A DNA stretch of 57,330 bases from positions 1 to 57,330 of IMG/VR virus record IMGVR_UViG_3300021963_000149; one strand, written 5' to 3'. How positions within the stretch are numbered: the stretch's first letter is position 1; every line of letters starts with the position of its first letter. The DNA comes from a virus. The translations under genes and the position numbers were made by a program. Under the pieces are notes generated by a model. The model searched no databases. It saw only the letters and a program-made list of their open reading frames with translations, and was not told the origin of the DNA. This document shows positions 5,632-57,215 of this stretch, piece by piece.

Positions 5632-6126
5632 TCAGTAACGCAGTTTTGCGTGAACACTATCTTTAATGCTATTATAGTCGGCATGTCCGATTGAGTCAAC
5701 CCCATCATCAAAGAAAACTTCGTTGTATCCAGAACGCTCAAGGATTTTATTTTTGATTTCTAGTTGACGCTTCTCTCTTTGAATGCGGCGAAGGAATGCG
5801 TAGTGAATAATTTGAGTAAAGTATGCAAAAGGATTTTGTGACTTCTCTGGATTGAAGTTGTGAATGTACTGAACACAATTTTCAATACCATCAGAAATCA
5901 TGTCCTCTTTAAACATGTAATTCACAAAGTTTGGTTTGAAGGACAGGTGATTCGCAATCTTCAGGAAGCACTCTCCAATGTAGCGAGGAATGGGAGGTTT
6001 TGGTTTTCCTTGAATCTCTGCGATTTCTTTATCTTCACGATACTTGATGAGAGCAGCAAGAAACTCTTTATTGTTTACATAGTGCTCTGACCTCTTTCTT
6101 TTGGTCATGACTGCTGTAGATATCAT
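5632..6126 (-). CDS. 55: gp55, late-transcription sigma factor
   Basis: 164 residues (T4 gp55 is 185). The core NPFAYFTQIIHYAFLRRIQ followed by EKRQ is the region-2-like helix block shared by T4-type late sigma factors that recognise TATAAATA. A second possible start (MTKRKRSEHY) is at 6108. The gene has its own sigma70-like promoter, logical for a factor needed before late genes can fire. It heads the operon 55-47-DUF3110-46. Confidence 0.93.
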   Translation of the reverse strand: MISTAVMTKRKRSEHYVNNKEFLAALIKYREDKEIAEIQGKPKPPIPRYIGECFLKIANHLSFKPNFVNYMFKEDMISDGIENCVQYIHNFNPEKSQNPFAYFTQIIHYAFLRRIQREKRQLEIKNKILERSGYNEVFFDDGVDSIGHADYNSIKDSVHAKLRY

Positions 6127-6150: not shown

Positions 6151-6179
6151 ATTATACCATTTTTAAAAATAGTTGACAA
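6151..6179 (-). promoter_or_regulatory. Sigma70-like promoter for gp55 operon
   Basis: Minus strand: -35 TTGTCA (6174-6179), 17-base spacer, perfect -10 TATAAT (6151-6156), with the ATG at 6126. Its -35 box overlaps that of an oppositely directed promoter. Confidence 0.75.
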
Positions 6180-6201
6180 GGTATTTCAAATCATGTACAA
6201 T
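6173..6201 (+). promoter_or_regulatory. Plus-strand sigma70-like promoter, antisense to the uvsW region
   Basis: Plus strand: perfect -35 TTGACA (6173-6178), 17-base spacer, -10 TACAAT (6196-6201). No convincing plus-strand ORF follows; a transcript would run antisense into the 131-residue gene and uvsW. Confidence 0.55.
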
Positions 6202-6229
6202 TACCTTTGTGGAGGTTGAAAGTCAGGTA

Positions 6230-6625
6230 TTAGCTATTCTTAAAGAGTTTTTCTAGAATCTCCTTAGCATCATTGACTGTAGAAATATATCCCATCTTAC
6301 GACTTAACTTAGGTTCATTTCTTTTGTCTTTGGATGACTGTCTTACAAATGATTGATACATTTCAATCATTTCAATATCACTTGATTCTGACATGGTTAA
6401 AACATCAGATAAGTCAAGAATAAACATATCATCTTTAGTTGTCTTTAACCAGGGTTCTAATTTATATCCTACAACACCAATACGAGATTTAATTTCATTC
6501 ACAATAATTGGATTTGTAATAATTAACAATGTTCTATCTTCTTCCTCAGAGGCAGCTACTTTGGCAAATATTTCTTCACCAGACTTGAGTTTGAGTGTAG
6601 CGTAAAAGTCTTCTTCAATTCCCAT
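6230..6625 (-). CDS. Unknown protein between uvsW and gp55 (possible Sm-like N-terminal fold)
   Basis: 131 residues. The N-terminal LKLKSGEEIFAKV followed by LLIITNPIIV resembles the strand pattern of Sm/Hfq-like small barrels; this is a weak pattern argument, not a family match. The middle is acidic and Ser-rich (TMSESSDIEMIEMY), and the C terminus ends in a helical EILEKLF. The start overlaps the uvsW stop by 11 bases, so it is co-translated with uvsW. Position next to gp55 raises the thought of a transcription accessory, but nothing in the sequence proves it. Confidence 0.75.
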   Translation of the reverse strand: MGIEEDFYATLKLKSGEEIFAKVAASEEEDRTLLIITNPIIVNEIKSRIGVVGYKLEPWLKTTKDDMFILDLSDVLTMSESSDIEMIEMYQSFVRQSSKDKRNEPKLSRKMGYISTVNDAKEILEKLFKNS

Positions 6626-8093
6626 TTTTTCCTAGTTGTATGGTGATTATGTCATAGTTAAAATTTTCTTCATTATAGATTTTAATTCTTTCAATGAGGT
6701 GATTTAAAGTGTAGTTTTTTCTTGACTTATAAGTACAATCATCAGAGATGTCGTAGAGGACTGCTTTAGTTTTATTTTTTCCTTTTCTAAGTACTCTTCC
6801 AATAGATTGTAAATTTCTAATTCGTGACTTACTGGGTGAAGCAAAGATAACATTATGGAGGTTCTTAATATTAATGCCAGTAGAAAAGGTTCCATAGGAT
6901 GCAACAATGATTGCGTTATTTTCCCTTTCTGTTATTTCTCTCACCAACTCTCTTTCTTCTGCATCTACACCACCATGAACAAAAAATACTTTACGGTCAT
7001 CTCGCTTATTTTTATTTATCTTTTCATAGAGTATTGCTCCATGTGCTTCAACGCGGCTAAAAAGTACAAGTGTGTTTCCTTTGAGATCTAATGTCAGATT
7101 TGTAATAAATTTATTTCGTTGCTCATGAGAAATTAAATATTGTATTTCATCTTCATATTTTTCAAATTTTTGTGGTGGATGTTTAAGAACAAGACATTGA
7201 ATATCTAATTGAGAAAGATGTCCTTGTCTCATCAGTTCTTCTGTTTTGGTGACTTTATATGATGGTCCAAACAGTCCTTCTAACACCCATTTATGCGTCT
7301 GTGTGCCGTCTAAAGTTCCTGTAAATCCAAAACGATACTTAGCATGATGAAGTTTAGTCATAATATCAATTAAAGATTTACTCTTGAAAAGATGTGCTTC
7401 ATCGCCTATAATGACTGAATAATCTTCAAAAAATGAACGTTCTAATTTATAGACTGATTGCCAAGTTGTAATCGTAACAGCATACTCATTTGTTTTTTCT
7501 TTTCCTGAATATATTCTGTGACAATATGACTCAGCATCCCAACCATAATCCTGGAAATCCTTGTACATCTGCTCTACAAGAGATGTCGTTGGAACAACTA
7601 AAAGAATTTTTTGTCCTTTACCCACATAATATCTTACGAGGGAATAAATCATCAACGATTTTCCGCTGGCAGTCGGGCTTATCAATAGTTTTCTATTATG
7701 CCTTAGAGCATCATATACTCCCTCTACTTGATACTGACGCGGGGCATGAGAGCAAATAGATTGCATGTAATCTTTGACACCCTCATATGAGATTCCTTCA
7801 TTAACCTCAAATGGTTGTCCGTAAAATTTATTATCTTCAAATTTATAGGTATAATTATATTGTTCACAAAAATTAACAATCTTGTCTAAGAGACCAACAT
7901 AGATTTGTTTAGACCTCATATCAAATAAATGAATCTCACCATTCCAATTTCTCTTTCTATATTGAGGCATGAACTTAGCACCGGGAACTTCAAACTTAAA
8001 GTGGTCCCTGAGTTCATACTCAATATGAGGTTCAGTATTGATTTTTAAAAATACTTCGTTAGATTTTGAGATAATAAGATCTGTTGTATTCAC
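6615..8093 (-). CDS. uvsW: UvsW, RNA-DNA and recombination helicase
   Basis: 492 residues (T4 UvsW is 503). The N-terminal HFKFEVPGAKFMPQYRKRNW matches the small substrate-binding domain of UvsW. Walker A PTASGKS is at residues 140-146, DEAH at 231-234, motif III FGFTGTLDG follows, and motif VI reads QSIGRVLRKGKNKTK. This superfamily 2 helicase unwinds R-loops and branched intermediates and shifts T4 from origin- to recombination-dependent replication. A late-type ATAAATA lies about 22 bases upstream, matching late expression of uvsW in T4. Confidence 0.95.
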   Translation of the reverse strand: MNTTDLIISKSNEVFLKINTEPHIEYELRDHFKFEVPGAKFMPQYRKRNWNGEIHLFDMRSKQIYVGLLDKIVNFCEQYNYTYKFEDNKFYGQPFEVNEGISYEGVKDYMQSICSHAPRQYQVEGVYDALRHNRKLLISPTASGKSLMIYSLVRYYVGKGQKILLVVPTTSLVEQMYKDFQDYGWDAESYCHRIYSGKEKTNEYAVTITTWQSVYKLERSFFEDYSVIIGDEAHLFKSKSLIDIMTKLHHAKYRFGFTGTLDGTQTHKWVLEGLFGPSYKVTKTEELMRQGHLSQLDIQCLVLKHPPQKFEKYEDEIQYLISHEQRNKFITNLTLDLKGNTLVLFSRVEAHGAILYEKINKNKRDDRKVFFVHGGVDAEERELVREITERENNAIIVASYGTFSTGINIKNLHNVIFASPSKSRIRNLQSIGRVLRKGKNKTKAVLYDISDDCTYKSRKNYTLNHLIERIKIYNEENFNYDIITIQLGKNGN

Positions 8094-57186: not shown

Positions 57187-57215
57187 ATTGTAAGATGCTG
57201 GGCGTTTTCTGTCAA
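57187..57215 (-). promoter_or_regulatory. Sigma70-like early promoter
   Basis: Minus strand: perfect -35 TTGACA (57210-57215), 17-base spacer, -10 TACAAT (57187-57192), 28 bases before the ATG at 57159. A minus-strand ATAAATA (57217-57223) lies just upstream of the -35 box. Confidence 0.75.

Follow-up and report, generated by a model that had tools for sequence, protein, structure and literature searches.

A conserved antisense promoter with a candidate start-site operator beside the late sigma factor gene gp55 of T4-like cyanophages

Introduction

The early promoters of T4-like cyanophages are sigma70 promoters of the TTGACA/TATAAT type, presumably served by the unmodified host polymerase, and the -10 element of the late promoter in S-PM2 is NATAAATA (PMC2984593). 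Cyanomyoviruses are devoid of MotA, Asi, Alt and Mod, which leaves the timing of their early, middle and late transcription to be explained (PMC2984593). Antisense RNA is also known from this group, in the form of CfrI of S-PM2, which belongs to the psbA/homing endonuclease locus and is tied neither to gp55 nor to a recurring promoter block (PMC2984593). Divergent transcription from overlapping elements is described for the bacterial bidirectional promoters of Warman et al., in which the -10 is shared and the starts are 10–23 bp apart (PMC12825309).

The locus considered here, between the late sigma factor gene gp55 and a gene for an Sm-like protein, can be compared with each of these systems. 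With the Warman type it has in common divergent starts, overlapping elements and opposing polymerases that could not bind together, but its -35 elements are shared or adjacent, its -10 elements are about 40 bp apart and its predicted starts are 64 bp apart; a bidirectional promoter of that type is ruled out, as no -10 is shared. As with CfrI, the product would be an antisense RNA in a T4-like cyanophage, here predicted from sequence. Its rightward promoter resembles the early promoters in its elements, and differs from them in that it carries a start-site block found at only two to four promoters per genome and in that the gp55 copy is antisense. Phage operators can overlap the start site of a promoter. 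The block described below is like them in being a repeated, roughly dyad and genome-specific element across +1 at a few promoters, although its cognate repressor is here only putative and the phages are lytic.

Among the papers accessible to a literature search, none was found to describe this locus. What is new here is the conserved block after the rightward -10 and its recurrence at other promoters. We think it probable that the locus holds a divergent, overlapping promoter pair whose rightward, antisense member belongs to a set of two to four promoters with a block bound by a putative phage protein. A conserved antisense promoter with a genome-matched block offers a testable lead to the missing regulator and to the control of gp55 and UvsW.

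The Promoter Pair

The window, that is, the whole stretch of DNA analysed, is a 57,330-base virus record from a T4-like cyanophage, in which the ORFs of at least 120 codons are on the minus strand except for two, both overlapping longer minus-strand ORFs. The promoter pair occupies the 103-base gap between gp55 and the Sm-like gene, with uvsW upstream (Table 1). The first-pass annotation had placed two sigma70 promoters back to back around one TTGACAA here, and divergent, overlapping elements of this kind are indeed present, TTGACA/TACAAT on the plus strand and TTGTCA/TATAAT on the minus strand; its 131-residue gene is identified by Pfam and phrog matches as that of the Sm-like protein.

Table 1. 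Features of the gp55–uvsW region (window positions).
Feature	Position	Strand	Remarks
gp55 late sigma factor	5632..6126	-	phrog_234 E 9e-68, Pfam Sigma70_r2
Leftward -10 TATAAT, extended -10 TG	6151..6156	-	17-bp spacer; predicted start ~6144, for gp55
TTGACAA, -35 of both promoters	6173..6179		rightward TTGACA 6173-6178 (+); leftward TTGTCA 6179-6174 (-)
Rightward -10 TACAAT, 17-bp spacer	6196..6201	+	predicted start ~6208 from canonical spacing
Start-site block (T)ACCTTTGTGGAGGTT, conserved; candidate operator with a weak dyad	6202..6217	+	
Predicted antisense non-coding transcript across Sm-like gene	6208..6625	+	end nominal; possibly further into uvsW
Sm-like protein (annotation 'methylamine utilization')	6230..6625	-	Pfam Sm_like 1.6e-10, phrog_471 6e-40
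UvsW helicase	6615..8093	-	Pfam UvsW_N, phrog_16

In a sequence scan each site agrees with the consensus at 11 of 12 positions. Shuffled sequence yields such single-scan matches just as often (50 promoter-like sites observed in 16 kb, 48.5 expected), and hence the case for the promoters has to be made by comparison. Viral contigs were searched twice, and this gave 135 distinct intergenic sequences between Sm-like gene and gp55, which serve here as the close relatives. The plus-strand boxes, whose absence from close relatives would have spoken against the original proposal, are kept throughout: all 135 have the rightward TTGACA and, 16–18 bp away, a TAnnnT, on the strand opposite gp55. The -10 reads TACAAT in 55, TAGAAT in 38, TATAAT in 23, TAGACT in 14, TAAAAT in 3 and TATGAT in 2, with positions 1, 2 and 6 invariant while the adjoining spacer sequence varies freely, and the spacer is 17 bp long in 117. 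The best rightward site has at most one mismatch of 12 in 121 of the 135, against 0.6% of dinucleotide shuffles. The site thus has the sequence elements of a sigma70 promoter, conserved near-consensus -35 and -10 elements 16–18 bp apart. The leftward -10 is TATAAT in 103 of the 135 relatives and TATACT in 16, and its position before gp55 agrees with the suggestion that it serves gp55 expression.

Among 23 cultured cyanophage genomes the rightward site is kept in 21, of which 19 were found with the block model described below and two (ACG-2014d and ACG-2014f) by eye; it is absent at gp55 from P-TIM40 and from the distant BUCT-ZZ01. P-TIM40 (KP211958), in which the module of promoter and block is missing at gp55, has one antisense copy beside structural genes (101110, minus strand; loci L226, L355). 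Near-consensus promoters in 11 cyanophage genomes and the window lie on the coding strand in 131 cases and on the other strand in 20, and the gp55 rightward site makes up 11 of these 20; of the 11 such promoters in P-SSM2, it alone lies on the reverse strand. A T4-type late promoter, with a -10 resembling TATAAATA, was considered and is ruled out by the -10s found here, TACAAT and TATAAT. The rightward site very probably functions as a promoter and gives rise to an antisense RNA.

Predicted Antisense Transcript

The rightward promoter points against the strand of the genes it faces and has no ORF of its own. No conserved ORF was found downstream of it among the 135 relatives. The idea that it serves a gene present in some relatives was rejected, as the insertions in the relatives examined lie on the far side of gp55, between gp55 and gp47, which leaves the rightward RNA without a gene to serve. 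Terminators for this RNA, sought in its first ~170 nt, occur in 4 of the 135 relatives, the level of shuffled sequence, and a scan of the window found no plus-strand terminator-like site between 6208 and 13188. With neither ORF nor terminator following the promoter, its predicted RNA would encode no protein and run antisense to the Sm-like gene and uvsW, in keeping with the earlier reading of its direction. The corresponding antisense starts are predicted at about NC_008296.2:123698 (minus strand) in Syn9 and NC_006820.1:84439 (minus strand) in S-PM2, and those of the sister modules at about 52776 (plus strand) and 162772 (plus strand). The Sm-like codons beneath the antisense RNA, including those at the 3' end, show no overall extra synonymous constraint. 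Four successive codons of that gene, N-D-A-K (window ~6261–6272), have an unusually low synonymous diversity among relatives (ratio 0.36–0.61).

Shared -35 Box and Promoter Overlap

The first-pass annotation had assumed one -35 box for both promoters, their probable mutual exclusion and, from this, a switch next to the late sigma gene. The box is common to both in 129 of the 135 close relatives; farther afield the sharing breaks down, the two -35s being separate in S-PM2, S-WAM2, S-CAM3, ACG-2014d and S-H38 and interlocked by 10 bp in Syn9, ACG-2014c, S-RIM12 and S-SCSM1. The offsets among cultured phages are +1 (shared), about -7 to -12 (separate) and +10 (interlocked), in steps of about one helical turn, which is suggestive only. 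Overlap of the promoters as such is present in every examined phage that has both, whereas about half of the distant phages have lost the shared box. The overlap makes mutual exclusion plausible; a switch goes further and may only be surmised. Overlap and exclusion could also be by-products of a short intergenic region of ~70–120 bp. In S-SRM01 the module occurs antisense a second time, back-to-back with another promoter at a distance of 10 bp.

Start-Site Block and Its Recurrence

The strongest feature of the locus was missing from the first-pass annotation: the rightward start lies within a block that is particular to each genome and is found again at other promoters. The block directly follows the rightward -10 and spans the predicted start, reading TACCTTTGTGGAGGTT in the window (6202–6217), and its positions 8, 11 and 20, counted from the start of the -10, are 99–100% conserved in the 135 relatives. 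Most sequences have a short inverted repeat ACCT..AGGT within the block region; the dyad pairs, out of 7, exceed those of shuffles modestly (for cultured phages 4.38 against 2.98, for contigs 3.81 against 3.42).

A pattern search found the block elsewhere in two cultured phages, preceding runs of small hypothetical genes. A sequence-only block model, built from the gp55 sites of uncultured relatives, was then run on the 23 cultured genomes and 8 long contigs, weak matches without a -10 or within genes being removed by eye, and gave at least one further site in most cultured genomes. Each phage genome has the module at one to three promoters besides that at gp55, in most cases ahead of a small gene without known function, and the genes concerned vary by phage; those that follow encode small proteins of unknown function (phrog_507, 718, 869, 878, 1653, 662), a CpeT-like protein, a UvsW-like helicase and a family named minor coat protein. 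The window's exact module was found at 80 loci in viral contigs. Since 71 of these are the Sm/gp55 site, this site is the constant member of the set; most of the 9 others lie directly before one small gene family resembling phrog_1653 members. No second block site was found in the window, where a minus-strand promoter at 57215 is without the block, and P-HM2 has the promoter with a different block, of which no second copy was found.

The block varies between phages and agrees among the sites of one phage. That of S-SRM01, AGGTTTGTT.., occurs at three sites and that of S-H38, AACACTGTAGGGG, identically at two, and the block is AACAATGTCAGAT in ACG-2014d and AACTCTGCCAG in S-CAM9. In a set of 20 genomes, the gp55 block lies at a mean distance of 2.48 from the other blocks of its own genome, against 4.93 (sd 0.34) when genomes are shuffled (p 5e-5; this p-value and the one below are inexact, as the statistics ignore kinship); gp55 blocks of different phages are at a mean distance of 4.95. 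In an automated scan of 11 whole genomes, independent of hand-picked sites, a genome's own block matched at 2.36 sites, counting that at gp55, and a foreign one at 0.46. The spacers of the same promoters (sites from scan and model hits) do not match within genomes (8.77 against 8.93, p 0.36), so that whole promoters are unlikely to have been copied. Different blocks are found in S-PM2, S-SKS1 and S-SCSM1, which have a common host strain, WH7803, and accordingly a phage factor is likelier than a host factor. One block at several promoters of a genome, varying between genomes, is the pattern of an operator and its regulon. Selection by a common factor is the simplest reading of the within-genome match, and the block is probably the target of a putative phage-encoded DNA-binding factor.

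Proposed Mechanism

The sequences show the promoter elements, their conservation and orientation, and the recurrence and within-genome match of the block; we infer RNA production and its timing, the existence of a factor and its repression of the rightward promoter, and an effect on gp55 and uvsW. The leftward promoter would start the gp55 mRNA. The rightward one, regarded as a strong promoter of the sigma70 type, would give rise to a non-coding RNA that lies antisense to the Sm-like gene and probably reaches into uvsW. Early in infection, host RNA polymerase would fire the rightward promoter and, where the -35 regions overlap, compete with the start of gp55 transcription; an accumulating phage factor would then bind the block and stop it, which would free the leftward promoter and end antisense transcription over Sm-uvsW.

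UvsW of T4 is a late protein, and its early presence would disturb R-loop origins, which makes an early antisense cover plausible. A role of the rightward promoter in the timing of gp55 and UvsW can nevertheless be put forward only tentatively. Equally tentative is the wider proposal of an unrecognised early DNA-binding regulator that governs a small, phage-specific regulon through start-site operators, with the antisense promoter restraining gp55 and UvsW until late infection. If true, the constant target of the regulon would act as a timer of the early-to-late switch.

Alternative Explanations

The rightward promoter may be real and the block may act in the RNA or on the polymerase, as an early leader, in promoter escape or as the leader of a ribosome site, and not as an operator; at gp55 there would then simply be an early promoter making antisense RNA. 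In S-SM2, Bellamy and SynMITS9220M01 the block does enter the leader of a small gene, with the ATG ~10 nt after GAGG, and the transcribed part of the block also matches within genomes (3.55 against 4.88). The best within-genome match, however, is in the left part of the block, most of which precedes the predicted start (1.35 against 3.14); in S-PM2 the ribosome site is a separate one much farther downstream, and the block varies by phage. We regard this explanation as unlikely. Still less favoured is a block that belongs to the leftward Sm-gp55 sense transcript, as a hairpin or weak terminator beside an incidental rightward promoter match. The ACCT..AGGT repeat would suit a hairpin, but there are no T-runs, and elsewhere the block follows a TTGACA-17-TAnAAT on its own strand, usually with a same-strand gene after it, which makes this highly improbable.

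Two further explanations leave the block unaccounted for. A two-way sigma70 switch through the shared -35, without a further factor, would draw on the overlap seen wherever both promoters are present and on the finding that overlapping divergent promoters can compete if one is strongly active (PMC12825309). Yet both promoters are kept in the distant phages that have lost the box, and in the E. coli tests of that study basal activity did not suffice for competition (PMC12825309), so that we give this switch little credence. The main alternative effect of the antisense RNA would be protection, in which it shields the Sm-uvsW mRNA of infected cells against the host's RNase E and represses nothing; such protection by antisense RNA has been reported in other cyanophages and also suggested for Kyanoviridae (PMC10976474). 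It fails to explain a genome-specific block, and we consider it improbable here.

Arrangements at Other Module Sites

Several non-gp55 modules, among those in S-H38, S-PM2, S-CAM9, DSL-LC02 and ACG-2014f, are followed by CTAAATA or CTATAAATA, like cyanophage late promoters, and may be read as an early and a late promoter in tandem. In S-SKS1 (169871, minus strand) and S-SRM01 (44624, plus strand), a terminator-like hairpin lies at most ~60 nt after the module, overlapping a second TATAAT, and is followed by the gene for the UvsW-like helicase, an arrangement that possibly yields a short leader RNA. The promoter back-to-back with the second antisense module copy of S-SRM01 (MW015081, 10942–11100, plus strand; locus L356) is followed by hairpins, a strong terminator-like run and a glutaredoxin gene, and the stretch before this gene is a candidate small RNA.
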